Shown here: in pieces, positions 24,125 through 47,253 of the stretch
Numbering within the stretch: the first letter of the stretch is position 1
How the letters are laid out: every line of letters begins with the position of its first letter
Source: a virus
Virus record (IMG/VR): IMGVR_UViG_3300022591_000014
Span: 1 to 49,744 of that record
Direction: 5' to 3' (one strand)
Length of the DNA: 49,744 bases
The notes under the pieces: model-generated
Seen by the model: the letters and a program-made list of their open reading frames with translations, nothing else
Databases searched by the model: none
Told to the model about the DNA's origin: nothing
Position numbers and translations under genes: made by a program

Positions 24125-27100
24125 CTACCTGCTAAGGGTTAATCTGTGTACTTTGATCACCATGTTTGTTGGAACATAGTTAGGTTTGAATGTTAGCTGA
24201 ATGTTACTTCCACCACTCAATACTGCGTCAAATGTACCTAAATCACCAAAGTTAGAAACCATACCGTATTCTGAGATATAAACTGCTGGTACTGTGTTAC
24301 CGTCATGGAATACAATAATCTCGCTAACGTACATCTTATTAGGTTGTCCTACTGCTGTGTTATCAGCAACCTGTACAAAGTACTTGGCTGATTGATATGT
24401 ACCAATCGCAAAAGTATCTAAGTTTACAGTTGATGTAGAACTAATACTTGGGCTAGTATATGTGTAGGTTTCTGAATTACCAACATTTAATGTATTTCCA
24501 TTAAAGTCGCCGTTACCGTCAACATTTAAGTCGCCTAATATTCCTACACCGCCTGCTACTTGTAAAGCACCAGTTTGCGGGCTGTTACTTGCGGTTGCGT
24601 CAGCAATCTTAACTTTGCCTGAACCTACATATAAACTCCACGCATTTGATAACGATGCGCTACCTGTTGCTATAGGTGCTCCGCCAATATAAACTGTAGA
24701 AGCGTTTGTATAAGTTACTGAATTAGTAGACGCTAATGTTGGAATACCAAAAGCGTTAATAAAGTTGCCAGCAACTACTCCAACACTATTTGAATCAGTA
24801 TAGGTTGCAGCTGGTACTGCGATACCTACTCCAGCTGTACCCCAAGCAGTTTTAGTTACGTTTCCAGAACGAGTAATTGTTCCTGTAGAAACTATATCTG
24901 AACCGTTTATAGTTACTGGAACATATACGTTATTATTGTAGAATGTAGTAACTTGAGTTCCTTGAACAACTACATCAATTTCTCTTGTTCCTGCTCCACT
25001 ATCTACGACTGTTACGTTACTTGTACCTGTAAAGATTGTGTATGGATTTAGGCCAATGTAGCCGCCCTGTCCCCAAACTTTACCAGCGACTGTTACTAAG
25101 CCGCCTACGTTTAGGTCTTTCTGTATTCCTACACCGCCTGTTACTACTAGGCCACCTGTTGTAGTACTTGTGCTATTTGTTGAAGTTGTTACTCGAACGA
25201 TTGCGTTAGCATCAATCTGTAGACCTTGATTCAACTGTAGGGTACTAAATCCAGTTCCTGTAGAATTTAATACGTCAATATGTGAACCATAGCCAATTGT
25301 TGCTTTGCTAGAAATTGCTAGCTGATCTCCTGAGCTACTACCTTTAACACGTAGGTCATATTCTTCAATACCACTACCGATAACAGTTAACGCACCGTTA
25401 ATTGTAGCAGTTGAACCTACACTCAAATATCCTGTTAATACAGTATTGTTTCCAACGTTTAAGTTGTTACCAATCCACGCATTTTGACCAATCCCAACAC
25501 CGCCGGTTACTTGTACAGCACCTGTTGCGATATTACTTGCACCTGTAGCATTTGTAATCAACAGTTGATTTGATGTAGCATTACCACGATCAGTTACTGA
25601 CTGTAATGTGCTTGCGTTGTAAACTGTAATGTCACCTGTTGCGGCTGTAACTACAGTATCTGTACCAGCTGTTAAACTTGTTACACCAGAGTTTAATAAG
25701 AATACTGATCCTGTTGATGTTGTAGCAGTGATACCGTTACCGATAACTCCAATGCTATAAACACCAACGTTGGTAATAATTACACTACCTGTACTTTGAT
25801 TTACGTTAATACCAGCACCGGCTACCGCACTTGTTACACCAAAGTTAGCAATCGTAACTGCGCCAGTTGATGTACTTGCTCTAATACCATTACCAGAAGT
25901 TATTAAACTTGTTACACCAATGTTTGTTACAGTAGTTGTAGCACCGTAGACTGTTGCTGTAGTAATTTGAATACCAGGACCGCCAGTTAAATTAGCAATA
26001 CCTGTATTAGTTAACGCAATAATTACAGAACCTGTACTTGTTGTTACAGTACCAGTTAAGCCAGCGCCTAGGTTTAGACCAATTGATGTTGTAATCGGTT
26101 GACCATTTTGTAGAACTACGTTAGCATTTAATGTACCACCTACCCATACATCACCGCCAATACCTGCACCACCGTCATGTACAATCAACGCACCAGTTAA
26201 TGTGCTTGTAGCACTTGTGCCATTTGTAACAATAATTGGGTTGAATACTTCGCCACCGTTATATGCTGTTGCTGTTGTTAGAACAAATCCACGTACAATA
26301 ACGTTTCCGCCAACATATAAGTCTTTGTTAATGGCTTGACCGCCTTCAACAATTACGGCACCAGTTTGTGTATTGCTTGCGTTTAGACTGCTTCCAAATA
26401 CTGTTTGGCCGCCAATATAACTTGCGCCACCAACTCCAATACCGCCAGCAACTTGTAAGTCACCTGAAGACGGAGTCGTACTTGCGATGCCACCTTGTAA
26501 ACTCAAGCTACCAAATAATGCCGCGCCTAATGTTCCAGTTGATGAGAATGGATTTGGAACATTCTCTCTGCCACCTGGCCAAATGTTTGTACGATATGTT
26601 AATACACCAGTGGCATTATCACGTCCTAAGAACGCATGATTGTCATACGCAGGATTACTTGTACCAGTGGTACTATAATGCATTAATAAGCCGCGATCGA
26701 AACCGTCGTTTACTAATAATGGAGTGTTTCCTGGGCCTGTTCCAAGGTCAATAACTGGATCTTCAATACTTAACTGTTGACTGTTTACATAGGTATATGT
26801 ACCTGCTACAGTTAATTGTCCAGTGATTAAAGTATCGCCTGCTGTTAGGCTTGTAAAGGTTGCTGTATTACCAACGATGTTACTTGTACCAGCATTAAAG
26901 TTTCCAGTAACAGTTACGTCATTGAATATACTTCCGCCTGCGACAGTAAACGAGCTTGTACCTGTGTTAGTAATGTTGATACCATAACTTGTTGAGTTGC
27001 CTCGTTTAGTTACGCTATCTAATGTTGCTGTACTATAAACTGTAATACCGCCAGTCGATGTTGTTACTGCTGTATCTGTTCCTGCTGTTAAACTTAGAAC

Positions 27101-30100
27101 ACCAGCATTGCCAATACTAATATTTCCGCTTGATGTGCTAACTGAAATACCAGGACCGGCTGCGGCAGTTAATACACCTGCGTTGCTGATTGTTACAGTT
27201 CCGTTAGGACTATCTACAGTAATACCAGTGCCAGCGACTGCTGTTACAACGCCTGCGTTGGCTATGCTAATTGTTGCTGAGTTTCCTGCTGAAACACCAC
27301 CACCTGATAAACCATATCCTGCTGTAATGTTTACAAAACTTACAACACGATTTCCGTTATCATATACGTTACTAGCTTTTAGGTCACCGCTTAGTTGTAC
27401 ACCGCCTTGAATACCAACACCACCAGCAACGCTTAGAGCATTAGCTAGATAGTTAGTAGCACTTGTAGCTGTTGACCCAATGTGTACTTTGCCATCATTT
27501 ACCCAAACTGCGTATGTACTTGATAATGTAGTATTACCGTTGGCAGCTTTTGGAGCTCCTTCAATACGAACAGTTTGTGCTTGATCATACTGTGAACCAA
27601 ACAATGATTTAATTGTTGGACGACCAATATAAACAGCTTGTGTATTTGTAAATGATCCACTTGCTTGATTGTCTGTGTAAGTTGCGTCAGCAAGATTTAC
27701 AGCAATACCTAGGTCACCCCAGTTAGCAGTTGTGATATCACCTTCTCTACGAATTGTTCCGCCTACAAATAAATCTTTAGCGGCGGCTATACCACCAATT
27801 GTAACAATTGCACCAGAGTCTGTACTAACTGCGTTAATAGTCGAGTTAACTGTAATACCAATTGTGTTTAATGTACTTGTGTTTAGGCCAACAACTAACG
27901 GATAGTGAATTGTACCACCGTCAAATCCTGTCGGAGTTGCTGTTGTAAGTACACGAGCACCGTTAACAAACAAGTCTGACATAAAGCCAGTTCCGCCAAC
28001 ATATAAGTCACGTCCAATACCTTGTCCACCTGCTACTACTACCGCACCTGTTGTAGTACTAAATGCGTTTGATGTGTTAGCTTCTACTAATGGTTGTGTA
28101 ATTGTACCACCATCAAATATTACTGATGTGCCGTTTTCTGTAAAGATTCTGCGTACATATAAGTCACCTTGAATACCAACACCACCAATAACTTGTAGAG
28201 CACCAGTAGTTGTACTTGTTGCTACTGTGTTGTTACCAATCTTAACTGGACCAGCAGTTTGTATACCACCTTGTACACCTAAGCCGCCAGCAAATAATAC
28301 TGCGCCAGTTGTAGGACTAGAAGTTGCGGTAATGTTACCAAACTGTACTACGCCAGCAAAGTAGCTGTCGCCTTGTACTCCAATGCCGCCGTTTGTAAGC
28401 ATAAGAGCATGATTCAATGTTTGTGTTGAATTTGCTCCGCTGTTTGCTAATGTAATACGTCCAGCAAAATACGAGTTAGCAGTAACTCCGATACCACCTA
28501 ATACTTGTAAGTCACCTGTGTTGGTGCTAATAGAAGTAATACCGCCAGTAAGTTTTAATGTACCAAAACGTGCTGTACCATAGGTACCTGTGTTAGTAAA
28601 TGTTGCTGGGAAGTTTTCGTATCCACCTGGATAGATGTTATACTTGTAAACTAAGTCGCCTGTAGAAGCGTCACGTCCTAAGAACGCATGGTTATCAAAT
28701 GCTGTACTTGCGCCTGTGTTATAATGTAATAGTAAACCACGATCCATTCCATCGTTGGTTGTTAACGCAGTATTGTTAATACCAGTACCAACGTCAATAA
28801 CAGGATCGACAATGTATGTATTTTGCGAATCAACAGTTGTTTGTGTACCTAATACAGTTAAGTTACCGCTGATTACAGTATTACCGTAAACGCTTAGGTC
28901 TTGTTTAACTGCTGTACCACCTTCAACATACAATGCGTTATTTGTAAAGTTACTTGTATCACTTGCTGTGCTTGTGATGTGAATACTTACAAAGGTAGCT
29001 GTGAATGATTTGTTAAATGTTAACTGACCACCTAAGTCTAAGTTACCACCAATAACAACATCTCTACCAATACCAACACCACCGTCAACAACTAGCGCAC
29101 CTGTTGTTGTGCTTGTTGATGTAGCTGTACCAGTAACACGAACTTGTTGTGCGTTAATTTGACCTTGCGCACTGGCAAAGAATAAGTTTCCGCCTAATAC
29201 AATATCTTGTCCAATTCCAACACCACCAGTAATTGTTAATGCTCCTGTTACAGTTGATGTTGAATTAGTTGTAGAGGTAACTGCTAGAGTATTAACTTTT
29301 AAATCGCCTGCTTTTCCTTGGAATAATAACTGTCCGCCAAGTACTAAATTACCACCAATACCAACACCGCCAACTACAGTCAGTGCGCCAGTATCAGTTG
29401 ATGTGCTTTGTGTTGAGCTAGTAACTGCTAATGTGCTAACAGATAAGTTTGTACCAGAACCTTGGAATATTAATTTACCACCAAGCACTAAATCTTGAGC
29501 AATACCGACACCGCCTGATACTACAAGAGCACCACTATTAGTACTTGTTGAGTTAGTTGATGTTGAGAATGTTACATGACCACGTGCTAATAAGTTGTTT
29601 ACCGCAAAAGTATCAGCTAAACCGCTGAATATTAATTGGCCACCTAGTACTAAGTCGCCAGCAATACCTACACCACCGTCAACAATTAAGGCACCAGTAG
29701 TTGTGCTTGTTGATGTAGCAGTTGAATAAATGTGTTCTTGAACTTGTACAGTTAAATTAGTAAAGTTACCATTCTTAGGAATATTGTTACCAATATCCAT
29801 ATTGTCAATAGTACCTTTAGTTGCTGGATTAATAACAACGGTACCGGCACCGGTTGGTTGAACATAAACAGTCGCATCTTTAGGACTGATGTTTGCTTGA
29901 CTTAATACATTTAAGCCGCCTGTAATATTTGTTGAACCACCAACATATAAATTCTTTTGAATACCAACACCACCGGCAACTACAAGAGCGCCGACTGTAG
30001 TGTTTGTTGATTCTGTTCCGTCAATAATATTAACTTGATTTGTTGCTGTTAAGTATGTAAAACGTGCTTTAGCGGCAATTGATAAGCCTAGTGTTGTGTT

Positions 30101-31033
30101 ATCAAGACTCTTATTAAGAATTTCTTGACTTGAATTTGAGTCAACAATTTCATACCAACCTACTGGATCTGTATCAACTACGTTATATGTCGCAAAGTTT
30201 GTAAAGAATAAACGGCCAGCATAAGTTGTTCCGCTAGTTACAGGAATAGTGGCGTGTGCTATTTGTTTTGTTGTGTTAGCATCAGTAGCACGAGTTAATG
30301 TTACTGAATTTTCGTATTGTTCATAAACATACAAACGGCTTACTGGCCAACTTCCGCCTGTTGGATCTGTAGCAAATACAATAGTGCTAGTAGTAATAGT
30401 ATAATCAGTAGAAGCTAAAGTAACAGTTACAGGAGGTCCAGCAGGAGTATATGTAATTTGTACATTTGCTACTGAGGCAGTATTATGTGCTGTAGTTAAT
30501 GCGATTGTGTTTGGTAATAATCCAGCAACACCGTCAAATAACGGAGCGGCTGAGAATGTAGTAGTGCTTACAACATAAACACCGTTTTCTACAGGGTTAG
30601 TTTGCGCACGTACAACTAATCGATCTAAGTAACTTACAGTATAGCTATCATATACTAATGTGCTAGTGCTTGTGTTTAAAACAATATTAGCAGTTGTAGC
30701 AACTACCGCTTCTTTCTTATAACCAGAACCAACAATACCTTGAGGAATATTAACAGGACCGTTAAGTGTAATTGTACCTGTACCGCTTGGATTTAATGTT
30801 AAGTCGCCTGTTGGACTTTGACTTGTTATTGTACCAGTACTAAACGCTATTTGACCTAGTGTATTTGTAAAAGTTGCTTGTCCGTTTGGACCAATAACTA
30901 GTGTATAGCCAGTATTAGTCGAGGGACTTTGACCTAAACCAGCCTGTGCCTGGCTTAAGGTGATGTAGTTGTTGTTAATTGTGTAATTGACCCCTGTTGA
31001 GATCTTTACACGTCCACTAAGTAATACTGGCAT
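24125..31033 (-). CDS. Giant modular tail-fibre protein (2302 aa)
   Basis: Second giant fibre. Residues 1 to about 340 form a non-repetitive N-terminal region, probably the attachment end. They are followed by about 20 copies of the STSTTTGALVVDGGVGIGGDLVLGG repeat, many with LVLGGQLxF at the end, unlike the 4458-aa protein. Two copies of a DPVIDVGTGINN-DRGLLLHYNTG-DNHAFLGRD module lie at about residues 744-821 and 1423-1500, and a run of VTAVAGTGITV-GTVTISNAGV repeats lies between and after them. The C-terminal 110 residues (YRSAKYF-like QSAKYFVQVADN, YVSEIIVFHDG, AVYISEYGMV, NMVIKVHRLTLSR) form a separate module I know from virion proteins of marine T4-like phages. The Shine-Dalgarno is a doubled AGGAT before the ATG. 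No catalytic domain is visible. Confidence 0.9.
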   Translation of the reverse strand: MPVLLSGRVKISTGVNYTINNNYITLSQAQAGLGQSPSTNTGYTLVIGPNGQATFTNTLGQIAFSTGTITSQSPTGDLTLNPSGTGTITLNGPVNIPQGIVGSGYKKEAVVATTANIVLNTSTSTLVYDSYTVSYLDRLVVRAQTNPVENGVYVVSTTTFSAAPLFDGVAGLLPNTIALTTAHNTASVANVQITYTPAGPPVTVTLASTDYTITTSTIVFATDPTGGSWPVSRLYVYEQYENSVTLTRATDANTTKQIAHATIPVTSGTTYAGRLFFTNFATYNVVDTDPVGWYEIVDSNSSQEILNKSLDNTTLGLSIAAKARFTYLTATNQVNIIDGTESTNTTVGALVVAGGVGIQKNLYVGGSTNITGGLNVLSQANISPKDATVYVQPTGAGTVVINPATKGTIDNMDIGNNIPKNGNFTNLTVQVQEHIYSTATSTSTTTGALIVDGGVGIAGDLVLGGQLIFSGLADTFAVNNLLARGHVTFSTSTNSTSTNSGALVVSGGVGIAQDLVLGGKLIFQGSGTNLSVSTLAVTSSTQSTSTDTGALTVVGGVGIGGNLVLGGQLLFQGKAGDLKVNTLAVTSTTNSTSTVTGALTITGGVGIGQDIVLGGNLFFASAQGQINAQQVRVTGTATSTSTTTGALVVDGGVGIGRDVVIGGNLDLGGQLTFNKSFTATFVSIHITSTASDTSNFTNNALYVEGGTAVKQDLSVYGNTVISGNLTVLGTQTTVDSQNTYIVDPVIDVGTGINNTALTTNDGMDRGLLLHYNTGASTAFDNHAFLGRDASTGDLVYKYNIYPGGYENFPATFTNTGTYGTARFGTLKLTGGITSISTNTGDLQVLGGIGVTANSYFAGRITLANSGANSTQTLNHALMLTNGGIGVQGDSYFAGVVQFGNITATSSPTTGAVLFAGGLGVQGGIQTAGPVKIGNNTVATSTTTGALQVIGGVGIQGDLYVRRIFTENGTSVIFDGGTITQPLVEANTSNAFSTTTGAVVVAGGQGIGRDLYVGGTGFMSDLFVNGARVLTTATPTGFDGGTIHYPLVVGLNTSTLNTIGITVNSTINAVSTDSGAIVTIGGIAAAKDLFVGGTIRREGDITTANWGDLGIAVNLADATYTDNQASGSFTNTQAVYIGRPTIKSLFGSQYDQAQTVRIEGAPKAANGNTTLSSTYAVWVNDGKVHIGSTATSATNYLANALSVAGGVGIQGGVQLSGDLKASNVYDNGNRVVSFVNITAGYGLSGGGVSAGNSATISIANAGVVTAVAGTGITVDSPNGTVTISNAGVLTAAAGPGISVSTSSGNISIGNAGVLSLTAGTDTAVTTSTGGITVYSTATLDSVTKRGNSTSYGINITNTGTSSFTVAGGSIFNDVTVTGNFNAGTSNIVGNTATFTSLTAGDTLITGQLTVAGTYTYVNSQQLSIEDPVIDLGTGPGNTPLLVNDGFDRGLLMHYSTTGTSNPAYDNHAFLGRDNATGVLTYRTNIWPGGRENVPNPFSSTGTLGAALFGSLSLQGGIASTTPSSGDLQVAGGIGVGGASYIGGQTVFGSSLNASNTQTGAVIVEGGQAINKDLYVGGNVIVRGFVLTTATAYNGGEVFNPIIVTNGTSATSTLTGALIVHDGGAGIGGDVWVGGTLNANVVLQNGQPITTSIGLNLGAGLTGTVTTSTGSVIIALTNTGIANLTGGPGIQITTATVYGATTTVTNIGVTSLITSGNGIRASTSTGAVTIANFGVTSAVAGAGINVNQSTGSVIITNVGVYSIGVIGNGITATTSTGSVFLLNSGVTSLTAGTDTVVTAATGDITVYNASTLQSVTDRGNATSNQLLITNATGASNIATGAVQVTGGVGIGQNAWIGNNLNVGNNTVLTGYLSVGSTATINGALTVIGSGIEEYDLRVKGSSSGDQLAISSKATIGYGSHIDVLNSTGTGFSTLQLNQGLQIDANAIVRVTTSTNSTSTTTGGLVVTGGVGIQKDLNVGGLVTVAGKVWGQGGYIGLNPYTIFTGTSNVTVVDSGAGTREIDVVVQGTQVTTFYNNNVYVPVTINGSDIVSTGTITRSGNVTKTAWGTAGVGIAVPAATYTDSNSVGVVAGNFINAFGIPTLASTNSVTYTNASTVYIGGAPIATGSASLSNAWSLYVGSGKVKIADATASNSPQTGALQVAGGVGILGDLNVDGNGDFNGNTLNVGNSETYTYTSPSISSTSTVNLDTFAIGTYQSAKYFVQVADNTAVGQPNKMYVSEIIVFHDGNTVPAVYISEYGMVSNFGDLGTFDAVLSGGSNIQLTFKPNYVPTNMVIKVHRLTLSR
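24500..30010 (-). repeat. About 20 tandem fibre repeats in the 2302-aa protein
   Basis: Copies of the same repeat family as in the 4458-aa protein. Five consecutive copies near 28980-29700 are more alike than the rest (each ends with DLVLGGQLIF or a close variant, separated by 35-40 residues), suggesting a recent local expansion. Confidence 0.8.
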
Positions 31034-31449: not shown

Positions 31450-34400
31450 TTATAGTGCGATCGCTAAGATGAACGGAGTCAAGTTAGCAAATAGCGATTT
31501 AGTAAATGTACGTCCTGATAATACACCAGTTGCCTGACTAATTACCAATCCTGGACCAATACGGAAGTCACCGTTTTGGTCTGTTGATGTGAAGAACACT
31601 TTACCATTGTTCAACTGTATAACTTCTCTTTCTTGAATCGGGTCAGCACGTCCTACCTGTGGTAAAGCACCGTAGTTAGAACCAGCACCAACATACTCAA
31701 ACAAGTAACCAGAAGCAGACATGTATGAACGTTGATAGAAGTTAACCAATGCCTTATCTGGGAACAATGTAGCATCAGCAACGTTATCTTCTAACTGTAC
31801 GTAGTGGTGTGTGCCATTACGAGCAAAATAACTTTGTCCTGATAATACTGTGTTGTAATTGCCGCCTGATAATAAGTCAGCGGAAATAGCATCAACAATA
31901 TATCCTACATCACGCTTACAAATTGCTTGGTTATATTCAAATCCATTATACTTGTTATCAATATATGTAATTACCTGATTTACTAAGTTAGTCTTCTGTG
32001 TTTGAATAATATTATAAACATGTTGTAATGTTGAACTGTATCCATTGATGCTTGGATATACAATCGCAGGAGCCGCAGTTGTTCCGTTGGCTATGATAGT
32101 TGTAATAATCGTAGCGTACTGGTCAATTAATGTGTTAGCATTGTCGCCTTGAACTAATAATTGATTTTCAAACTGTGTAAATGTATTCTGATAACTTTGT
32201 GCCGGAGCTAAGTTAACTGCTACACGCTTCATTAAGTATGCTAGATAATTGTATGCGCCAACTGTTTGAGTAATCTCATTTGGAATTAAACTTACACTTC
32301 CGTTATAATAGTTCAATGCCGCATCAACTGTTTGCCAGTTTCCGCCGTATGTCATGTCGTACATCATGCTCCAGATTACATATTCAGCATCACGACGGCA
32401 TTTGTCTTGATTGTAACTGAATACTGTAAAGTTCTGATCAATGAATGTAATTGCTTCACTAGCGGCAGCACCTTTGTCTGCGTTAATTGCGTTTACTGCT
32501 GTTTGAATCAAACTGTTAACCCAACTTGTATCAGGACCAGTAACTAATGGTGCGGCACCTGGACCTGTGCTAACAATGTTAGACATTTCTGTAACTAAGT
32601 TAGCTAAGTCAGCGGATGCGTTATCACCAGATACTAAACCAGTATTCTTATATTGAGAAACACTTGACTGATATGATACAGTAGGAGATGCGTTAACAAC
32701 TACTTTTTGTAATAGTGTATTAATGTAATTAATAGCCGCTACAGTTTGTGTAGTTTCATTTGGAATAAAACTTACATTGTTATTTGCGTTATTGAAATAT
32801 TGTAATGCCGCATCAACACTCATACTGTTACCGCCATAGGTAACATCATACACAATCGCATCGACTAATACACCAACGTCACGCTTACACTTAACTCTAT
32901 CGTATGTAAATCCGCTACTTGTAAATGTTGTGTACACGTATGCTTCAACTTCTGCTTGAATAAACGAACGGTTAGCAGTAATTAACTGACTAGCACTTGC
33001 GTAACCGGTGTCAATATTGCTTGGTAATGTATATGTTACTGTTGGAGCAACACCGCCGTTTAACAAGATTGTATTAATTGTAGCAAAGTCACTAATAACT
33101 GTTTGTGTAGCAGTTGAACTTGCCGCCACTGAAGTTAGTGCCAAGCAATAATCACGTACAAAATTAAATGCCGCAATAGTTTGACTCTTCTCATTTAGAA
33201 GAACATTGTTAGCATTGCCTCTGTAATACGCTAATCCTGATTTAACAGCACGATAGTTTGTACCTAATAACATATCAGCTTCTAAGCCGTCAAGTACTAG
33301 ACCAATATCACGCTTACACTTAGTTTGATCATAAGTGTATGTTGGGTATGTTGCGTTAATCCAACCAATTAATTCTTCTTTGATAAAGTCAATGTTGCTA
33401 GTAATCAATGTTTTGGCACTAGCTAGTCCTGTATCATATCCTGCTGGATTAGGTAAGTTGTATGCTGGTTGACCCGCAACACCTTGGCTGATGATGTTTT
33501 GAATAGCAATGCCATCTAAGTTGATTTGACTGATCGCACTAGTTACAGTATTAATACCTGCTAGCTGAACAGTAACAGCACTTAGCTTGCCTACCGCATC
33601 AAGTGTTTCTGGCTTCTCATTTTTAAGAACATACGCACTCTGCGCACGTAGGTAAGCATTACCGCACTTGATTGCTTGATAGTTACTACCAAATACTGCG
33701 TCGTATCCAAAGCCGTCTAAAATATAACCTAAGTCTCTACGGCATGTCTTATGATCATAAACAAAATATTGACTATTAATATATTCAAGTATTTCTGCTT
33801 GTAGGAATGACTTGTTAGCTTTTAATAATGCCGCCGCACTTGCCGCACCTGGAGATACAATACCTGTCTTTTCAACTGGCGGAGCTTGATCTAAGCCACC
33901 AGTAATGATGTCAGTTAATGTTCCAAATAGTTGACCAATGCGTACACTTGACTGTGAACCGCCAATTAAGGCAATGTTTGTAACCTGTGTCGCAGTTGTT
34001 TGTAGAGCATCAACTAATTGATTATTAATAATTTGATTTGTTAAGCTATTAATATAGGTAATTGCTTGTACTTCTTCAATTGTATTATCGTTACCAGTTG
34101 AGTTAACGCTTGGGCTAATGAATGATACACCTTCTGTTAATGGATCCGGTGCTAGTGTACTACTTAAAATTGTATAGTAAGCATTACCAGCAACATATAA
34201 AGTAAAGAATGTTGAGTTTGTTACATCACCGCCACCAGCATTAATACTATTGCTTAGTGTAACTGATTTAAAGTTAACGTCTGTAACAATAGTGCCTGGA
34301 GTAATATACTTGTTACCACTTAGGTCACTGTATGAACCGTATTGGTCACGAGCATAAATGCCTTGACCGATAACAATACCTGTAGTATCAATACCGCTAA

Positions 34401-37400
34401 TAGTAATACTACCAGTAGTTAATGTACTTGTATTCAACTGAGCTGATAAGAAACCAGGTAGACCTTGATTATTAGTATATGACTCAGGTGGAATAACTTC
34501 CATAATCAATCCAATGTGTGGACGATAGTCTGGATCAGGTACATAAATTTCTACTTGCTGAGCCTGTGGATAGAAACCATTTGGATAATATGGTAGTACT
34601 GGTGGGTTATATACCTCACCGAAGAAACTACGCTTGCCGTAGCCTTTAGCTACTAGACAGTAATCACCAAAGTTGGCGTTTGAGTTAGTAATAGAACAAA
34701 TACCACCGTTCTCTACAATAACTGATGTTCCGCAGAAAATTGTAAACACAGATACTAACTGCGCATAGCCGTTGTTTGTAATGTGTACGCCAATACCGCC
34801 TTGGTTCAATTGTGTGTACGCATCAAATACGAACGATTGAATTGGTGAACGATCTGAAATAACTGCGCCGTCGATTAGAGCACCGCCGCATGAACCAAAC
34901 GGATCAATCTTACGTTGTGCCCACTGTGGAGGAACGTCTTTATCTAATGTTGGATATACTGAAGTTTGACCAAAGTATAATATAGCGTTAGTGCCTAATG
35001 AACGAACTGGCTGACTTAATGTTACACGATACTGATTGTGATAAATCTTTTCAACATCTAATACTGTAGAAGCACGAGAAATATTATCAACTGAACTATC
35101 AAATGTCGCAAACACTCCGCTACCTTGGTAAGGAGTTGGACTTGCCGCAGGACCCTTGGCAACAATTTCAGTGAATACATTAATTAATCTATCTAAAGGA
35201 ATTAATGCGTTTTCGCCACCACCAAAATATGTGTTAGTTACTTGACGAGTTGTGCTTAACTGATTAAATGTTGTATTAGTTAAAATGTTAGGCAATATCA
35301 TCTTCATGTATTCAAAGGCCGCATTGAACTGAGGGATTTCGTTGTAAACAACGTTAGCTCCGCCTGTCCAATATGTTAGTGCGGCTTCAATAGTTTTCTT
35401 ATTGCCTGTTAGTAATATGTCTTGTGAGAACGCATCAACAATTAAGCCAAGGTCACGATGACATTTTTCTTGATTGTAATTAAAGTAATAATTATTACCG
35501 TATGATTTATCAATAAAGGCAATAACTTCTGCTTTGATAAATTCTCTATTCAACTGTAATAAAGACATCGCATGCTGAACGTTAGCATCAGTATTTTGTA
35601 TTAGGCCGATTGGAGTTGGAGCATCTGCTACACTAGGACCGTTGCTAATAATATCAATAATCTTATCAATCATTAGATGAATTGCTTCGCCTGTTTCAGC
35701 TGGAGCAGATTGACTTGTAAATTGTTGAGTTACTGTGTTACCTTCAGTTACTTGAATTGGCGTATTAGTAATAATACTTGTTACAATTTCACGCATACGA
35801 GTGTATGCTAAAGTTGTTTGAGTTTGTTCGCCCGGAATAGCACTCAGTGTTCCTGAGAAGCCATAGTAGTAAACACCACTCATAATTGCTTGACGGTTAC
35901 CGCCATACAGAATATCGTAGCTGATACTATCGATTAGGTATCCAGTATCACGATAGCATTTAGCTTGATCGTATTGGAATCCTGCTGGATACATTGTGTT
36001 GATATATGCAACAGTTTCTGCTTGGATGAACGCACGGTTAGCTTCAAGTAATAACGCACCGTTAACTGTATTAGTATCTGTAGAAACAGTTAATCCAATT
36101 GGAGTTGCTGTATTCGCAACACTTGGACCGTTGTTAATAATATTTGTAATTGTATCAACTAGGCCTTGTGCCGTTGTTGCTACAGATGAGTTACCGTGTG
36201 TTGCGCTTATTACTTGGCTTACTGCTGTTTGATAAGTTGTTGGTACTGCAACACCTGTAATAATATCTAAAAGAATTGATTTAATATGATTGTATGCCGC
36301 AGTTACTTGTACTGATTCACCAGGTATAGCACTTGAGCTTCCTGAGTAACCATAGTAATATGTACCTGACTGAATTGCTTGACGATTTCCGCCGTATAAT
36401 AAGTCAACACATACTGAGTCAATCATGTAACCAACGTCACGCTTACATTTTACACCATCGTAAGTAAAGCCAACTGTCTTAGTTGATTCGACATACGCAA
36501 CTGCTTCTGCTTCAATGTATGCCTTGTTTGCTTGTAACAATGCGTATGCGTTATTGTAATAAGTATCTGAACTAGCAATTAAACCGTTTGGTTCAATTTT
36601 GTCAGTTACCGCAGTAACACCGTTTTCTAAAATATCTAAAATAACATCAAAGTCAACCCCTACTGTATCAGCGGCTTGTGCGTTACCTGCTGATAAATTA
36701 GTTACCTGAGTTACTGTTGACTGATAACGTGTTCCAGCTGTAGAGTTAAGAATAACTTTCTTAGCTAGATCTTTAACGTAGCTAACTGCGTTAGTTGTTG
36801 TAGTTAATTCACTAGCAATCGCACCAACATACCCTGTTTGATTCCAGTATTGAATTGCGGCAAATGTTGATTGGCTTGTTCCGTTGAATAGTAAGTCTTG
36901 AGCAATTGCATCAACAATTAAACCTGTATCACGATAGCACTTAGGCTCATTGTAATAGAAACCTTGATCTTTAGTAGACTCAACAAACGCAATAGTTTCT
37001 GCTTGTAAGAAACCTTTGTTTGCTTGTAAAATGTTAAATGCTTTCTGTGCGTTAACACTTACCGGAGTTGTTCCATTGCTTACAATTAAATCAGTAACAC
37101 CGGCAGTACCGTTTGTTAAGATTGTTAATACATCTCCAAACTCTGACTGAACGCTTGTTGCTTCGCTAATAGAAGCTGGCGGTAAATTAAAGATCTGAGT
37201 TACAGTACTTTGATACGGTGTTTGAATAATTGTGTTTGTTACTAACTTCTGAGCGATTGTACTGATATAGCTTAATGCCGCAGATGTAGTTGTTAATTCT
37301 TGTGTAATGTTGCCAGTGTAACCATCTTGGTTCCAATATTGTAAACCAACAAAGTTACTTTGAGTGTAACCATTTGAACTCCAACCTAAGTCAGTTACTA

Positions 37401-40400
37401 AGCCGTCGATAATTAATCCAGTATCGCGAGCACATTTAGTCTTGTCGTATGTATAACCAGTTGTAAATGTTACGTCAGCATAGGCAATTAATTCAGCACG
37501 GATAAAATCTCTGTTAGCTAATAAAATTGCCGCGGCATTTTTAGCATCTTGATCTACTGTCTGACTTAAACTAATTGGAACTTCTGGTAAAGCGGCTCTT
37601 GGACCATCATGAATAATTTTAACAATCAAATCAACCATTGCTTGAACTTCTGTACTTTGTACATTAGTTGCGGCTGGTAAGTTGACAACCTGTGTCTGAC
37701 CATTGCCAACACTTGCTCCAACGGTTTGATTGGTTATAATTAATGGAAGAATACTACGCAGTCTTTCGTATGCGGCAGTTACTTGAATTGATTCATTTGG
37801 AATCGCACTAGCTGTATTTGAGAAACCATAATAGTAAACGCCTGCTTGAGTAGCTTGACGATTACCGCCGTACAATACGTCAAAACTTACGCAGTCAACC
37901 ATGTAGCCAACGTCACGAGCGCATTTAGTTTGATCGTATGTAAAGCCGTTTGATTTAGTCTGTTCAACAAAGGCAACCGCTTCAGCTTCTAAATATGATT
38001 TATTAGCTTGTAGTAAGTTAAATGCCTTAACAGCATCTGCGCTTACTGTAGTTTGTCCTGGGGCAACTAATCTGTCTGTTACTCCAGTGGTACCGTTTTG
38101 TAAAATGTATGTAATAACACCAAAGTCTGTAGAAATACGTCCTGCTTGAGCGACTGTTGATGTAGGTAAGTTAGTTACCTGTGTACTAGTAGAATACCGT
38201 GTACCGCTAGTATCTAACTGAACAATTTGTTGTGCTAATCCGCTGATATAATTAATTGCGGCAGTAGTTGTAGATAGTTCACGACCAATTTGACCTGTGT
38301 ATCCATCTTGGTTCCAATATTGTAAACCAGAGAAATTACTCTGAGTATAACCATTTGCTGGGAATAATAAATCAGTAATAATGCTGTCAACTAAAATACC
38401 AGTATCACGTGAACATTTAATTTTGTTATAAGAGAACTTAGCACCATTATACTGTGTATTGATGTAAGAAACAATTTCTTGAGAAATGAAATCTCTATTA
38501 GCCTCTAGTAACGCAAATGCCTTTGAAACATCTGTGCTTGTGTCAGCAGTTTGGCTGATTGGTAATAGTGCTGATGCTACGCTTGGACCATTCTCAATGA
38601 TGTTGATAATTTTATCAACTTTCATTCCTAATAATGATGCTTGAGCAGTAGTAGCTGGAGCTAAATTAATTACTTGACTTAATGTGTTTCCTGGGCTACG
38701 ACTAATTGGAGTTGCTGTTACTACAGCCGCAACAACATCTTTTAGGTATGTGTAGGCATTTACTGTTTCTGTAACTTCGTTTGGAATAGCAGTTGAGCTA
38801 CCGTCAAAGCCATAGTATGTTACACCGGCTTGTACTGACTGACGTGTGCCGCCGTGTAATAAGTCAAATGCTACAGAGTCAACAATGAACCCAACATCAC
38901 GAGCGCACTTAGTTTGATCGTATGTAAAGCCCGATGTCTTGGTTGACTCGACATAGGCAATAACTTCTGCTTTTAAGTAAGCAAGGTTAGCAAATAATAA
39001 AGTGTAAGCATTTACAGTTCCCGGAACACCACTTGCTAAACCGTTTGGAACAATCTTATCTGTAACGCCATATGTACCGTTGTTAATAATATTTAATACT
39101 AGATCAAAATTTGTTTTAACTGTAGTAACATCAATAATAGTACCAGGGGCAACTGAAACGTCTTGAGTTAATGCTGTTTGATATCTTGGACCACTTGTAT
39201 CGTTGATAACAATCTTCTGGGCAAGACTACTTAGATAGCTAATAGCATTCGTAGTAGTTGAAAGTTCAGCACCAATTTGTCCTGTATAACTACCTTGGTT
39301 CCAATATTGTAAACCGGTAAAGTTACTTTGACTATCTGTGATGGTTGGATATAATAAGTCAAATGCTAACGCATCAACAACTAATTTAGTATCACGTGCG
39401 CACTTGCTAGAATTAAATGGAAAGTTTAAGAATGACTTGTTTACAAATGTAACGATTTCATCTTGAATGAATGTTCTGTTGGCTTGAAGTAAAACTTCAG
39501 CACTCATGTAATATGGATCAGGTGCGCTACCAGCAATACTAGCAGGAGCAACGCTTGGGCCATTTAAAATAATGTTGTTGATTGTGGCAAAGCCGTTATC
39601 TAATGCTGTTTGAGCTATGCCGCCGCCAGTTAATACATAGTTAATTACTTGTGAATGTGTAGCTGTGCTACCTAATAAATTAGGAGCCGCTTGGTTTCTA
39701 ATAATTGAGCTAGCTAATGTAGAAATATAATTAATAGCACCAGTCGTTTGTACTTCTTGTCCACCAATAACTGATGTAACTCCGCTATAATAACTTAAAC
39801 CTGATTCAACAGATTTCTGATTACCACCAAACAGAGCATCGTAAGAAACGTTTTCTAAAATAATTCCAACGTCACGTGCGCACTTGTCTTGATTATAAAC
39901 AAAGTTTGGCAATGAGCTAACATACGCAGTAACTTCTGCTTTGATAAATGCTTCGTTAGCTTTTAATAATGTATAAGCGTTTAGTAATCCCGTATCTGCT
40001 GTTTCAGATAATCCAATTGGAATTAACGCAGGAGCTGCCGCAGGTCCTACACTAATCAATCGTGTAATAATATCAATGTTATTTCCAATAGTAGTTGCGG
40101 CTATCGCACTACCTGGATTGTTAGTATCTAATACTTGACTAATTTCTGATTGATAGAAACTGGTTAATGTTTGACTTTGTACTACCGCTTCTATTACATT
40201 CTTCATGTAATTGTAAGCCATTGTAGTTTGAACTCTTTCGTTTGGAATTTGACTTACAGTACTTGAGAATCCGTAGTAGCATACACCAGACTGGATAGAC
40301 TGTCTGTTGCCGCCGCGTAATAAGTCAAAGCTAACTGAGTCAACAATGTATCCTACATCACGTTTACATTTTGCGTGGTCGTATACAAATCCAGGAATAT

Positions 40401-42222
40401 TGTTAGTAATGTAGGCAATAGCTTCAGCTTCTAAGAATGCCTTGTTTGCTTGTAACAATGTATAAGCATGTAGTGTAGAGGTTGATGTTGTTACTTCACC
40501 GTTGCTTACAATCCAATCTGTAACTCCAACAGTACCATTACTAATAATATTTGTAACAGTTGACATTAGAGTATTAATACGTGCCGCATCGCCGATGCCA
40601 CCGGGATTGCTATTAATTACCTGTGTAATTGTACCTTGATATGGACTTGCTACTGTAATGTTTCTAACAACTTCTTGAGCGATAGAACTGATATAATTAA
40701 ATGTCTCTACAGTTTGAGTTACTTCTGAACTAATTTGTCCAGTGTAACCGTCTTGAGCCCAATACTGAATACCAGAGAATACTGATTGACTTGTACCACC
40801 ATAGATTAAATCTAGGCCTAAACTGTCAACAATTAAACCTGTGTCGCGAACGCACTTGGCTTTGTTATACTGGAACGGTCCGCCGTATGTTTGATTAACA
40901 TAGGCAACTGTTTGCTCTTGAATAAAAGGCTTGTTAGATAATAATAAGGTACGAGCATTATAAAAACCAATGTCAGGAGGTCCGCCGTTAACTGCTTGAC
41001 CTATTGTTAATGTACCTGTTGTTAATGTAACAGTGATTGTACTATCACCTGGAGCATAATCAGCAAAGCCAACTGCTTCAGGAACTTGAACTGTTTGGTT
41101 TGGTACAAACATTGTACCATCATATAACCATGGACCAGATTGGTTTGTACAGTTTTGAATGTATGGTGACTGGAATAAGTCAATAACTTCTGTGTTAGGG
41201 AATGAGGTTGCGTAAGCACCACGATTAGTGTTTGGCTTGTAACCGTCGCCAGGGAAACGACCTGAACGACCATTAAACATCATTAACTGAGCAATATAGC
41301 AACCAGAGCGAACGTGGAATAAATCTTGAGTCTTGTTAGCAGGTTCAACGATTGTTGTACGTAAGTCAGATCCAATAACAGAAGTGTATGGCTTCATTTC
41401 AATTGGATTGTTTTCAATATAATGACCTGGAGAAACTTTAATGCTTGTACCTGGACGATATAATGGAGATTTTGTAGCACCGCTAATTGTACGGCAAGCA
41501 CGACTAGCGTCCATTGCTGAACCATCGTTAGTATCGCTACCATCTTCGTTAACGTATAATACGTTTGTTGTCTGCGGTGCTGTACCTAAAGGAGTACCTT
41601 CCCAGATGCGTACTTTACCATAGACGTTTAATACACCATCTTGAGGGATGATGTCAATATTACCTGGAATTCTGTTTGTTAATGTATTACCTGATAACTC
41701 CATGTTACCAGCAAGAACATTACTGAAGTAACCGTTTAACCAATTGTTAGTTCCGCTACCAATGTTAAATGCGTTTGGTGTTTTAGGAATTAAATCACTA
41801 ACAATTTCTGCGCCAACTGTTAACGTGTCGTTAGTAACTTGATTACCAAGAACAATGTTACCGTCGGCAGTGATGTTTCCAGTTGCGTGTAAGTTACCGC
41901 CAACTTCAACATTAGAATTTAAGTTGATATTATTGCCAGCGGCAGGAGTAATATTAATAGGACCTAACGTAGAAGCAATAGTGCCGCTAGTTAAGGATTT
42001 TGAAACTGTTAATAAACCAAGGGTGGAAGTGTTTGAAACTCTTAGTACGCCTACATTGGCTGTGCCATTGACGTCTAAATCGTATTGAGGAGACGCAGTT
42101 TTAATACCCACGCGGCCTGTTGTTACATCTAAGTATAGTAGATTTGTCTCTACTGCTAAGTTTACACCGTCACGTAGCAAATTGCTTGCAAGTAACGGAC
42201 CTGTTATGCGACCTACGGCCAT
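31450..42222 (-). CDS. Giant structural protein with beta-helix and 17 Cys-containing repeats (3590 aa)
   Basis: Third giant protein, different in design. The N-terminus MAVGRITGPLLASNLLRDGV followed by YLDVTTGRVGIKTASPQYDLDV matches the start of virion proteins I know from marine T4-like phages. Residues about 219-356 are a beta-helix (LYVNEDGSDTNDGSAMDASR, SIKVSPGHYIENNPIEM). Then come 12 tandem repeats of about 160 residues, each with xCxRDxGxIVDSxxxDLLYGG and YYYGF or YWNQDGYTGQI. An intervening domain (about 2370-2710, WAQRKIDPFGSCGGALIDGA) is followed by five more repeats. The end, FEYVGAGSNYGALPQ then FFTSTDQNGDFRIGPGLV, is shared with other phage structural proteins. Shine-Dalgarno AAGGAG precedes the ATG. 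Role is inferred as long fibre or baseplate appendage. Confidence 0.88.
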   Translation of the reverse strand: MAVGRITGPLLASNLLRDGVNLAVETNLLYLDVTTGRVGIKTASPQYDLDVNGTANVGVLRVSNTSTLGLLTVSKSLTSGTIASTLGPINITPAAGNNINLNSNVEVGGNLHATGNITADGNIVLGNQVTNDTLTVGAEIVSDLIPKTPNAFNIGSGTNNWLNGYFSNVLAGNMELSGNTLTNRIPGNIDIIPQDGVLNVYGKVRIWEGTPLGTAPQTTNVLYVNEDGSDTNDGSAMDASRACRTISGATKSPLYRPGTSIKVSPGHYIENNPIEMKPYTSVIGSDLRTTIVEPANKTQDLFHVRSGCYIAQLMMFNGRSGRFPGDGYKPNTNRGAYATSFPNTEVIDLFQSPYIQNCTNQSGPWLYDGTMFVPNQTVQVPEAVGFADYAPGDSTITVTLTTGTLTIGQAVNGGPPDIGFYNARTLLLSNKPFIQEQTVAYVNQTYGGPFQYNKAKCVRDTGLIVDSLGLDLIYGGTSQSVFSGIQYWAQDGYTGQISSEVTQTVETFNYISSIAQEVVRNITVASPYQGTITQVINSNPGGIGDAARINTLMSTVTNIISNGTVGVTDWIVSNGEVTTSTSTLHAYTLLQANKAFLEAEAIAYITNNIPGFVYDHAKCKRDVGYIVDSVSFDLLRGGNRQSIQSGVCYYGFSSTVSQIPNERVQTTMAYNYMKNVIEAVVQSQTLTSFYQSEISQVLDTNNPGSAIAATTIGNNIDIITRLISVGPAAAPALIPIGLSETADTGLLNAYTLLKANEAFIKAEVTAYVSSLPNFVYNQDKCARDVGIILENVSYDALFGGNQKSVESGLSYYSGVTSVIGGQEVQTTGAINYISTLASSIIRNQAAPNLLGSTATHSQVINYVLTGGGIAQTALDNGFATINNIILNGPSVAPASIAGSAPDPYYMSAEVLLQANRTFIQDEIVTFVNKSFLNFPFNSSKCARDTKLVVDALAFDLLYPTITDSQSNFTGLQYWNQGSYTGQIGAELSTTTNAISYLSSLAQKIVINDTSGPRYQTALTQDVSVAPGTIIDVTTVKTNFDLVLNIINNGTYGVTDKIVPNGLASGVPGTVNAYTLLFANLAYLKAEVIAYVESTKTSGFTYDQTKCARDVGFIVDSVAFDLLHGGTRQSVQAGVTYYGFDGSSTAIPNEVTETVNAYTYLKDVVAAVVTATPISRSPGNTLSQVINLAPATTAQASLLGMKVDKIINIIENGPSVASALLPISQTADTSTDVSKAFALLEANRDFISQEIVSYINTQYNGAKFSYNKIKCSRDTGILVDSIITDLLFPANGYTQSNFSGLQYWNQDGYTGQIGRELSTTTAAINYISGLAQQIVQLDTSGTRYSTSTQVTNLPTSTVAQAGRISTDFGVITYILQNGTTGVTDRLVAPGQTTVSADAVKAFNLLQANKSYLEAEAVAFVEQTKSNGFTYDQTKCARDVGYMVDCVSFDVLYGGNRQATQAGVYYYGFSNTASAIPNESIQVTAAYERLRSILPLIITNQTVGASVGNGQTQVVNLPAATNVQSTEVQAMVDLIVKIIHDGPRAALPEVPISLSQTVDQDAKNAAAILLANRDFIRAELIAYADVTFTTGYTYDKTKCARDTGLIIDGLVTDLGWSSNGYTQSNFVGLQYWNQDGYTGNITQELTTTSAALSYISTIAQKLVTNTIIQTPYQSTVTQIFNLPPASISEATSVQSEFGDVLTILTNGTAGVTDLIVSNGTTPVSVNAQKAFNILQANKGFLQAETIAFVESTKDQGFYYNEPKCYRDTGLIVDAIAQDLLFNGTSQSTFAAIQYWNQTGYVGAIASELTTTTNAVSYVKDLAKKVILNSTAGTRYQSTVTQVTNLSAGNAQAADTVGVDFDVILDILENGVTAVTDKIEPNGLIASSDTYYNNAYALLQANKAYIEAEAVAYVESTKTVGFTYDGVKCKRDVGYMIDSVCVDLLYGGNRQAIQSGTYYYGYSGSSSAIPGESVQVTAAYNHIKSILLDIITGVAVPTTYQTAVSQVISATHGNSSVATTAQGLVDTITNIINNGPSVANTATPIGLTVSTDTNTVNGALLLEANRAFIQAETVAYINTMYPAGFQYDQAKCYRDTGYLIDSISYDILYGGNRQAIMSGVYYYGFSGTLSAIPGEQTQTTLAYTRMREIVTSIITNTPIQVTEGNTVTQQFTSQSAPAETGEAIHLMIDKIIDIISNGPSVADAPTPIGLIQNTDANVQHAMSLLQLNREFIKAEVIAFIDKSYGNNYYFNYNQEKCHRDLGLIVDAFSQDILLTGNKKTIEAALTYWTGGANVVYNEIPQFNAAFEYMKMILPNILTNTTFNQLSTTRQVTNTYFGGGENALIPLDRLINVFTEIVAKGPAASPTPYQGSGVFATFDSSVDNISRASTVLDVEKIYHNQYRVTLSQPVRSLGTNAILYFGQTSVYPTLDKDVPPQWAQRKIDPFGSCGGALIDGAVISDRSPIQSFVFDAYTQLNQGGIGVHITNNGYAQLVSVFTIFCGTSVIVENGGICSITNSNANFGDYCLVAKGYGKRSFFGEVYNPPVLPYYPNGFYPQAQQVEIYVPDPDYRPHIGLIMEVIPPESYTNNQGLPGFLSAQLNTSTLTTGSITISGIDTTGIVIGQGIYARDQYGSYSDLSGNKYITPGTIVTDVNFKSVTLSNSINAGGGDVTNSTFFTLYVAGNAYYTILSSTLAPDPLTEGVSFISPSVNSTGNDNTIEEVQAITYINSLTNQIINNQLVDALQTTATQVTNIALIGGSQSSVRIGQLFGTLTDIITGGLDQAPPVEKTGIVSPGAASAAALLKANKSFLQAEILEYINSQYFVYDHKTCRRDLGYILDGFGYDAVFGSNYQAIKCGNAYLRAQSAYVLKNEKPETLDAVGKLSAVTVQLAGINTVTSAISQINLDGIAIQNIISQGVAGQPAYNLPNPAGYDTGLASAKTLITSNIDFIKEELIGWINATYPTYTYDQTKCKRDIGLVLDGLEADMLLGTNYRAVKSGLAYYRGNANNVLLNEKSQTIAAFNFVRDYCLALTSVAASSTATQTVISDFATINTILLNGGVAPTVTYTLPSNIDTGYASASQLITANRSFIQAEVEAYVYTTFTSSGFTYDRVKCKRDVGVLVDAIVYDVTYGGNSMSVDAALQYFNNANNNVSFIPNETTQTVAAINYINTLLQKVVVNASPTVSYQSSVSQYKNTGLVSGDNASADLANLVTEMSNIVSTGPGAAPLVTGPDTSWVNSLIQTAVNAINADKGAAASEAITFIDQNFTVFSYNQDKCRRDAEYVIWSMMYDMTYGGNWQTVDAALNYYNGSVSLIPNEITQTVGAYNYLAYLMKRVAVNLAPAQSYQNTFTQFENQLLVQGDNANTLIDQYATIITTIIANGTTAAPAIVYPSINGYSSTLQHVYNIIQTQKTNLVNQVITYIDNKYNGFEYNQAICKRDVGYIVDAISADLLSGGNYNTVLSGQSYFARNGTHHYVQLEDNVADATLFPDKALVNFYQRSYMSASGYLFEYVGAGSNYGALPQVGRADPIQEREVIQLNNGKVFFTSTDQNGDFRIGPGLVISQATGVLSGRTFTKSLFANLTPFILAIAL
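31800..34080 (-). repeat. Five C-terminal copies of the Cys-x-Arg-Asp repeat
   Basis: Copies 13-17 of the repeat in the 3590-aa protein, spaced about 152 residues apart, more divergent than the first twelve. Copy 13 has TCRRD and copy 17 ICKRD in place of KCxRD; copies 14-16 keep KC. They carry NYxxVxxGxxYY in place of NRQxxQSGVYYYG. Confidence 0.85.
35100..40970 (-). repeat. Twelve tandem copies of the Cys-x-Arg-Asp repeat
   Basis: Each unit is about 160 residues (about 490 bases): ANxxFIxAExxAYI, YxxxKCxRDxGxIVDSxxxDLL, a YYYGF or QYWNQ segment, an xxTxAxxYIxxx helix, SQVxN, then IxxIIxNGPS. Two subtypes partly alternate: type A with SNFxGLQYWNQDGYTGQI (copies 1, 4, 6, 8, 9) and type B with GGNRQxxQSGVYYYGF (copies 2, 5, 7, 10, 11). 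Copies 3 and 12 belong to neither. Confidence 0.88.
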
Positions 42223-44378: not shown

Positions 44379-44398
44379 ATGATAAATCCCTTATGCTT

Positions 44399-44406
44399 TA
44401 TTTATT
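44399..44406 (-). promoter_or_regulatory. Candidate T4-type late promoter AATAAATA
   Basis: Minus strand AATAAATA (NATAAATA class) in the 29-base gap between the 223-aa and 333-aa genes, 21 bases upstream of the ATG at 44378. Confidence 0.5.
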
Positions 44407-44407
44407 C

Positions 44408-45079: not shown

Positions 45080-45091
45080 ACCAGTATTTAC

Positions 45092-45361: not shown

Positions 45362-45365
45362 AAAG

Positions 45366-45391
45366 AAAAAAGGGCTCCGAAGAGCCCTTTA
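45366..45391 (-). terminator. Rho-independent terminator with UUCG loop
   Basis: On the minus strand a GGGCTC-TTCG-GAGCCC hairpin with flanking A/T pairs is followed by TTTTTT. The C(UUCG)G tetraloop is an especially stable type. It follows the 176-aa gene stop (45394) by two bases. Confidence 0.9.
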
Positions 45392-45393
45392 AT

Positions 45394-46074: not shown

Positions 46075-47253
46075 TTACTTGAATGATACGTTAGCAGAAG
46101 TAATAGATACTTTGCCTAAGTAGTCAGCCGCGTTACCTAGTGAAGAAGCAGTATTTGTTAACTCAACATAGCCGTAGCGTGTTAAGAAACCAACTACTGG
46201 TTCAAATGTATTAGGATCTAATACAACACCAGATGACATTAGAGGAATGTATGGGCAATAGAATGCCGCTGCATCAGCCTCTGATGGGCCTTTGTAACCA
46301 ATAAGAACTTGATCGTTATCGCGACCTGTATCAGCTAAGTAAGCGTCAACATAGATACGCATAGCGTTATTCAATGTACCAACAAACTTAGTGTTTGTAG
46401 GTGCTTCGAATGTACCTTCTGTTGTACGAGCAAAAGCTGAAGTAGTAGCTGACTGAAGAATTGTTAGTGCTTGCGCAGAAACAACAGCCCAGTTACCAGC
46501 ACCACGACGTGTGCGTTGAGCAATCTTGTTAGCAACACGGTTGATTTGAATTGCCAATGCGGCATGTTCGTCACCAACGAATGTAGCTGTACCAGAAACT
46601 AATGATTGGTCATAAGTTTCTTCTACTGTAGCTAAGCCACGTAGAGAAGCTAAAATTTCTTGGTCGATTTCAGCAGTAATTTCTTGTGCTAAAGCGGCCA
46701 TGATTTCTGCTTCGATATCAATACCTTGTTGCGCTTGTGCATCTTGAGCAGCCTCAAAAGTCCAACGAGCTGATAGCTTGCGGCTCTTAGCTTCTACTGG
46801 AGCTTTCAAGATTTGAATGCTCATACGCTTACCTGGTTGACCTTCTAACGCCGCTGTGGTTTGAGCACGTGGAGTTGAAGCATCGTTGTTACCAGAATAC
46901 GCTTGAGCGATCTTGAATGGGCTTAATGCTTCCTCACCTGCATATACTTCACTGCTGTTGTCAGCGTAACGTACACGTAGAGTGTGGATTTGTCCTACTG
47001 GACCAGTCATTGGTTGTACACCAACGATTTCGTTCGCAATAACTGTCGGCATTACACGACGGATTACTGGAAGAATAACACGGTTAAGTGTTGCGATGTT
47101 ACCTGCAGATGTAGCACCTGCTGTAGCACTTTCTGACAAGTACTTACGTGTATTTTCCAAGCAAGTTGCCATGGAACTACGACGGTTTCCTTGTAACCCT
47201 TCTAATAGGGCTTCTTTGGTATCTGACCATCTTTCGTTCAGAAGTTGTGACAT
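46075..47253 (-). CDS. Major capsid protein, gp23-like
   Basis: A 392-aa protein with the T4 gp23 pattern: NTRKYLSESATAGATSAGNI, then TLNRVILPVIRRVMPTVIAN and EIVGVQPMTGPVGQIHTLRV, KLSARWTFEAAQDAQAQ, EIDQEILASLRG, and an end with PYIPLMSSGVVLDPNTFEPV and VGFLTRYGYVELTN. These are the hallmarks of the HK97-fold capsid protein of T4-like phages. A (L/I)xE prohead-protease site, YLSE, places the likely cleavage after Glu41; LLE at 16-18 is a second candidate. At 392 aa it is well below T4 gp23 (521 aa), with a shorter N-terminal propeptide. AGGAGA lies before the ATG, and a strong terminator follows. Confidence 0.95.
   Translation of the reverse strand: MSQLLNERWSDTKEALLEGLQGNRRSSMATCLENTRKYLSESATAGATSAGNIATLNRVILPVIRRVMPTVIANEIVGVQPMTGPVGQIHTLRVRYADNSSEVYAGEEALSPFKIAQAYSGNNDASTPRAQTTAALEGQPGKRMSIQILKAPVEAKSRKLSARWTFEAAQDAQAQQGIDIEAEIMAALAQEITAEIDQEILASLRGLATVEETYDQSLVSGTATFVGDEHAALAIQINRVANKIAQRTRRGAGNWAVVSAQALTILQSATTSAFARTTEGTFEAPTNTKFVGTLNNAMRIYVDAYLADTGRDNDQVLIGYKGPSEADAAAFYCPYIPLMSSGVVLDPNTFEPVVGFLTRYGYVELTNTASSLGNAADYLGKVSITSANVSFK

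Follow-up and report, generated by a model that had tools for sequence, protein, structure and literature searches.

A giant phage tail protein with repeated phycobiliprotein-like modules that may carry bilins

Background

In phycobiliproteins and globins related to them, C-x-R-D is known from published work as the site of bilin attachment, in which the Cys bonds ring A of the bilin and the other two residues hydrogen-bond the chromophore (PMC10151467). Phycobiliprotein relatives with C-x-R-D or C-x-Q-D also exist outside light harvesting as the bacterial bilin-binding globins (BBAGs, photoglobins; Rockwell 2023), and the genes of some of these are neighbours of heme oxygenase and bilin reductase genes (PMC10151467). 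In the phage groups considered here, ho1, pcyA, pebS, pcyX and cpeT serve bilin synthesis or handling, and their products are enzymes or chaperones. The role of phage pcyA and pebS has been called 'a mystery' and that of cpeT 'unresolved' (PMC3037559), the role of hemO with bilin reductases in phages of presumed non-cyanobacterial hosts is described as 'still enigmatic' (PMC11480375), and how phage bilin genes are used in the infected cell is likewise unresolved in the literature (PMC3037559, PMC11480375).

The closest described relatives of the protein analysed here are the cyanophage tail families phrog_4527, phrog_5342 and phrog_701, T4-GC 734 and the gp7-like T4-GC 507, in which the module recurs and the protein that bears it is of one kind with ours; the cyanophages that share it include S-PM2, Syn1, P-HM2 and S-WAM2, among others. 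The cyanophages that we looked at carry few, diverged copies (at most nine matches per genome), whereas in the best-preserved relatives of our protein the copies are regular and number about 13-21 per protein. Among open-access papers, we found no published phycobiliprotein-like module in a phage tail. Here we describe a tail protein of an aquatic phage with 17 such units and put forward, as a tentative reading, that it is a fibre with phycobiliprotein-like modules that would probably carry bilins.

The locus and its tail-fibre gene

The window, by which we mean the whole stretch of 49,744 nucleotides that was analysed, is a 49.7-kb virus record (IMGVR_UViG_3300022591_000014) that is mostly filled by three giant structural proteins (2302, 3590 and 4458 aa), which by their PHROGs are virion structural, tail fibre and baseplate wedge proteins. 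The genes that concern us are:

10664..24040, minus strand: 4458-aa baseplate-wedge-type protein
24125..31033, minus strand: 2302-aa structural protein with STSTTTGALVVxGGVGIG repeats
31450..42222, minus strand: tail-fibre/baseplate-type gene, 3590 aa, 17 units (PHROGs tail fibre and virion structural families)
46075..47253, minus strand: major head protein, about 70% identical to that of jumbo myoviruses of Proteobacteria

The two adjoining giants at 10664-31033 are made largely of STSTTTGALVVxGGVGIGxDLYVGG-type repeats, and three ORFs without a PHROG match lie between the capsid and fibre genes (43377-45924).

The third giant, which begins with an ATG at 42222, belongs to known phage tail families (phrog_4527, E = 1e-156; phrog_5342, E = 4e-153) and is flanked by baseplate, sheath and capsid genes, so that by both PHROG assignment and context it is a cyanophage-type tail fibre or virion structural protein; the preliminary description had called it a phage fibre from its letters alone, and the tail-fibre and virion-structural families bear this out. 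The phage itself does not classify as a cyanophage. Its capsid is nearest to that of proteobacterial jumbo phages, and because of this identity of about 70% a cyanobacterial host cannot be assumed. No psbA was found in 37 relatives, a set that does not include the window itself.

An old array of 17 units

Within the 3590-aa protein, the units are distributed over two arrays as follows:

40981..42222, minus strand: N-terminal region (aa 1-414), a virion-protein-like start followed by a beta-helix-like segment
35128..40980, minus strand: first array, units 1-12, of types A B x A B A B A A B B x
35761..35982, minus strand: stretch of unit 11 (aa 2081-2154) that matches positions 65-139 of the PF00502 profile, helices E-F-G
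33871..35127, minus strand: central domain (aa 2366-2784), Cys-rich and beta-like, without C-x-R-D
31585..33870, minus strand: second array, units 13-17, with C-x-R-D at aa 2827-3435
31450..31749, minus strand: conserved C-terminal segment (aa 3492-3590), common to phage tail-fibre families (phrog_17885, phrog_3442)

The N-terminal region has the look of a right-handed beta-helix or pectate lyase, which is a resemblance only; compared with the PDB by sequence it gave no significant match, and the central domain (aa 2366-2784) gave no match to the PDB. The Cys-rich, beta-helix-like segments at 40981-42222 and 33871-35127 flank the 12-unit array as if one beta-helix domain had been interrupted.

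A recount of the C-x-R-D motifs puts their number at exactly 17. Those of the first array stand at aa 457, 619, 781, 941, 1106, 1270, 1434, 1597, 1762, 1926, 2089 and 2254, and those of the second at aa 2827, 2969, 3112, 3275 and 3435. The motifs are spaced by 160-165 aa in the first array, then by 573 aa, and then by 142, 143, 163 and 160 aa. Both the number of units with a Cys two residues before Arg-Asp and their layout as 12 tandem copies, a separate domain and five more copies thus agree with the preliminary description; its further statement that a DLLYGG-like segment follows in every unit fails for units 4, 6 and 8, which have PTITDS, PANGYT and SSNGYT. The motif Cys is invariant (17/17 units) and is the only conserved Cys, the 12 further Cys of the protein being scattered and out of register. 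When 16 of the units are aligned, the invariant positions include C, R and D of the motif, Asp(C+14), Tyr(C+30) and a Gly near the unit end.

The two subtypes reported before stand as far as the assignment of units goes (A: units 1, 4, 6, 8 and 9; B: units 2, 5, 7, 10 and 11), with weak to moderate support, and unit 3 and units 12-17, including all five C-terminal units, belong to neither. In a tree of the 17 units, B forms one clade (support 87/86), and A as a clade is only not rejected (p-AU 0.44). It had also been suggested that the array grew by duplication of an A-B block. Most units of the window show 51-86% identity to the unit at the same position in near relatives, compared with at most 56% to any unit within their own array. 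For most units, then, the closest match among the near relatives that were compared is the same-position unit. The array is thus older than these phages, and this positional orthology rules out recent growth by A-B duplication: the array is old and has not recently grown.

Sequence likeness to phycobiliproteins

For the whole 3590-aa protein, the only Pfam family found is the Phycobilisome family PF00502 (E = 1.7e-8, 35 bits against a cut-off of 22.2), and the match spans just E-F-G; a six-frame search finds the same place in unit 11 at 16 bits, and single units score 16-18 bits, under the cut-off. Searched against 24,736 Pfam families, related two-unit sequences match PF00502 in 31 of 110 cases and any other family once, and related single units match it in 9 of 108 cases, with no other family recurring. 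A profile of 16 units compared with the whole PDB retrieves ten chains, all ten of them phycobiliproteins (best E = 0.003). In the opposite direction, phycocyanin alpha was searched against 50,697 phage records; the query is a valid probe because it finds cyanobacterial cpcA at 81-91% identity. Its 12 matches, none of them individually significant, include seven in Synechococcus phages, all in structural or tail proteins of this module's family.

The two kinds of protein have in common a C-x-R-D that opens a long helix E, the helix order B-E-F-G-H, a Lys preceding the Cys (68%), Gly at C+5, an aromatic residue at C+13, and GG at C+18/19, and their lengths are similar (160-165 aa per unit here, 161-172 per phycobiliprotein subunit). 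They differ in that the N-terminal X/Y helices are not seen in the module, which has an extra strand between F and G, stands in tandem in one giant chain, gives a low TM-score, and has an invariant Asp(C+14) and Tyr(C+30), the first of these positions being Cys or Ala in the phycocyanins used for comparison; a bilin is only predicted for the module. The BBAGs and photoglobins are bacterial globins and the module is part of a virion protein, and we liken the two from the published description (PMC10151467).

Aligned by hhalign with 140 phycobiliprotein ORFs out of cyanobacterial genomes, the unit profile reaches a probability of 80% (92.5% for the alpha subset, pairwise E = 4.8e-7), compared with <0.5% for column-shuffled controls. 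Once C, R and D are masked, the whole-domain score is 13.0, which is background (shuffles reach up to 15.0). The whole-domain sequence link therefore rests on the motif, and homology of the whole domain beyond it is unsupported. This loss of signal favours the main rival of the bilin reading, namely that the helix with C-x-R-D serves the fibre as a structural motif and nothing more, either convergent or a very distant homolog minus the pigment. The Cys would then pack inside the core or against a three-fold axis, while Arg, Asp and Asp(C+14) would form buried salt bridges. We consider this quite possible, and about as likely as the carrying of a bilin.

Helix E itself tells against it. When C, R and D are masked and the profiles are slid past each other free of gaps, from C-1 to C+20 or only from C+4 to C+20, the true register of helix E ranks first of about 140 offsets in both directions and for both subunit types [alpha, score 20.7, next 4.0; beta weaker, score 3.3, next 2.9]. 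The positions in common are K(-1), G(+5), hydrophobic residues at +8 and +11, an aromatic residue at +13, L(+15) and GG(+18,+19). The similarity reaches over C+4 to C+20, and from these sequence comparisons we read it as real, arising from homology or from strong shared constraint.

Predicted fold and modularity

An AlphaFold model of two units, built from 110 sequences (pLDDT 92.3, pTM 0.82), has helices at the expected B, E, F, G and H places with a strand between F and G, and its helix 44-64 starts just before Cys47, which places C-x-R-D at the start of the predicted helix E. Compared with the PDB, 43 of the 44 top matches of this model are named phycobiliprotein or phycobilisome chains, the other being an unspecified bacterial fluorescent protein, and for a single-unit model the figure is 20 of 23. 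The Foldseek values are E = 0.03-0.4, none below 0.001, with TM-scores of about 0.3-0.38 and an rmsd of about 18-20 A, and as Foldseek also scores amino acids, the motif may add to these matches. With TM-scores so low and an rmsd so high, the model does not predict a closed globin fold; in it, local structure follows the same order as in phycobiliproteins and the overall packing is different. The purely structural reading gains from the low TM-scores, but it leaves aside that the best matches by sequence and by fold fall in one and the same protein family.

In relatives, the E-F-G part (about 75-90 aa) is also repeated alone, and B and H are also present without E-F-G. To our knowledge, no phycobiliprotein has parts that occur separately in this way. 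In three loci of relatives (L327, L328 and L334, on contigs G042 and G046), full units alternate with short B+H units that lack the C-x-R-D core, and cores are doubled inside one unit. These core-less units and doubled cores suggest a two-helix repeat into which the core, as a module of its own, has been inserted. A plain phycobiliprotein domain is ruled out, since the closed globin-like fold (X, Y, A-H) is absent and the E-F-G core stands alone; an independent core of 75 aa is also what a purely structural motif would allow.

Under the bilin reading, the tail-fibre or baseplate protein would be built largely from a phage-specific helical module of about 162 aa, with helix B, helix E opened by C-x-R-D, a short helix F, a strand, helix G and helix H, whose E-F-G core of about 75 aa would correspond to the chromophore half of a phycobiliprotein. 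We infer that the invariant Cys covalently carries a bilin (biliverdin or a phycobilin), while Arg and Asp would hold its propionate and pyrrole nitrogens as they do in phycobiliproteins, and the assembled fibre would be a rod studded with bilins. Such bilins might stabilise the module, or might serve a tail function responsive to light or redox.

Conservation of the motif and the role of the Cys

Among 753 near-full related copies from the loci of relatives, C is kept in 97%, R in 98%, D in 99%, and Asp(C+14) and Tyr(C+30) in 100%; F, S, W or Y replaces the Cys in about 3% of the copies, 593 of the 753 have exactly one Cys, and the neighbourhood of the motif has neither a conserved His nor a second conserved Cys. 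In 42 diverged copies from deposited cyanophages, the Cys is kept in 40, Asp(C+3) and Tyr(C+30) in all 42, and the Arg in 25. This drift of Arg with Cys and Asp retained resembles the C-x-Q-D photoglobins (PMC10151467), and the conservation of Cys together with Asp(C+3) favours the bilin reading. A merely structural role would agree with the complete conservation of Asp(C+14) and Tyr(C+30), the former being Cys or Ala in those phycocyanins, and with the occasional F, S, W or Y in place of the Cys; Cys is however a poor choice for a merely structural site that is kept at 97% over hundreds of diverged copies.

The preliminary description had proposed metal binding or inter-subunit disulphides for the Cys and had overlooked both the bilin-attachment motif and the Pfam match; its two roles were dropped as first readings because conserved partner residues are lacking. 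A metal reading, as we would put it, has the Cys, with Asp, hold an iron-sulphur centre or a metal ion, which in a trimeric fibre might lie on the three-fold axis. The short fibres of T4-like phages have metal sites along their axes, and each unit offers one invariant Cys and several invariant Asp. The missing conserved His or second Cys nearby, the Arg right beside the site, which is unusual for a cation, and the lack of any database match to a metal domain make this improbable in our view, and nothing in the analysis points towards metal. In a disulphide reading, inter-chain or inter-unit bonds would stiffen the extracellular fibre, for which a conserved Cys in a virion protein is a starting point; we consider it very improbable, because the number of units is odd, each has a single conserved Cys about 160 aa from the next with no conserved partner, three equivalent Cys in an assumed trimer cannot all pair, and fibres assemble in the reducing cytoplasm.

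Distribution of the module and its bilin-gene neighbours

A search of deposited phages with a cyanophage query found the module in 388 records, all 388 of which are cyanophages. It is absent from all five proteobacterial jumbo phages with a similar capsid, from plasmids and, in a scan for close relatives, from cellular genomes, and is present in 11 of 16 uncultured aquatic relatives by capsid.

If the modules carry bilins, these could in some relatives come from phage genes, through heme oxygenase and bilin reductase with cpeT as a chaperone or lyase, and elsewhere would have to come from the host. In S-PM2 and Syn1, only a few small genes separate cpeT from the module-bearing tail fibre gene downstream of it, and a 2OG oxygenase gene immediately precedes the latter; a distance of about 1-3 kb between cpeT and the module-bearing tail gene downstream is found in S-PM2, Syn1, S-H9-2, S-RIM32 and S-RIM44, and in P-SSM7 cpeT and pcyA stand directly before the baseplate hub gene. 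No CpeS-type (S-type) lyase was found. Adjacent heme-oxygenase and bilin-reductase genes occur in three of 37 module-bearing contigs, and the other 34, many of which are fragments, show no bilin genes.

All five of the bilin-reductase contigs of at least 140 kb that were tested have the module, two of them having been known beforehand to have it, and so do P-SSM7, P-SSM4, S-TIM4 and S-SSM4, mostly in a diverged form. The module is however frequent in these groups in any case (11 of the 16 aquatic relatives by capsid carry it, and only one of them has a reductase), for which reason we do not count the association as significant. A statistical link is suggestive at best, and there are two counterexamples: heme oxygenase and bilin reductase occur without the module in Mosig, a Pelagibacter phage, and the module is absent from P-SSM2, which is reported to have bilin reductase genes.

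Three observations in these genomes stand apart. In Mosig (L312), genes for ferrochelatase, heme oxygenase and bilin reductase are clustered next to those for neck and sheath. Adjacent heme oxygenase and PcyA-like reductase genes occur in uncultured contigs 230-328 kb long (L214-L216, L228-L230), in which psbA was not found. The RefSeq annotation of S-PM2 places a cluster of tRNA genes within the reading frame of the tail fibre and on its strand (L217, 4893-16232).

A possible link to light-dependent adsorption, and implications

A bolder extension of the bilin reading, to which we give little probability, is that the virion itself would be a photoreceptor, in which bilins on the tail modules would let light gate or trigger adsorption. 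The module is absent from P-SSP7, a phage that infects in the dark, and S-PM2 gives nine module matches. P-HM2 fails to adsorb in the dark (PMC7112961), and its gp7 contains modules with the canonical KCARD and KCIRD; light-dependent adsorption has been reported for several cyanomyoviruses. This tentative comparison comprises four phages (P-HM2, S-PM2, P-SSP7 and P-SSM2, the last of which has no module) and is confounded by phage family. If true, the idea would account both for some cyanomyoviruses that are unable to attach in the dark and for the presence of bilin-synthesis genes and cpeT in phages.

A pigmented virion, if true, would be categorically new. Published work seeks the target of phage bilin genes in the host, and a virion module with a bilin-attachment signature is a possible target inside the particle. 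A module that is so widespread and conserved might connect the pigment genes of these phages to light-dependent adsorption.
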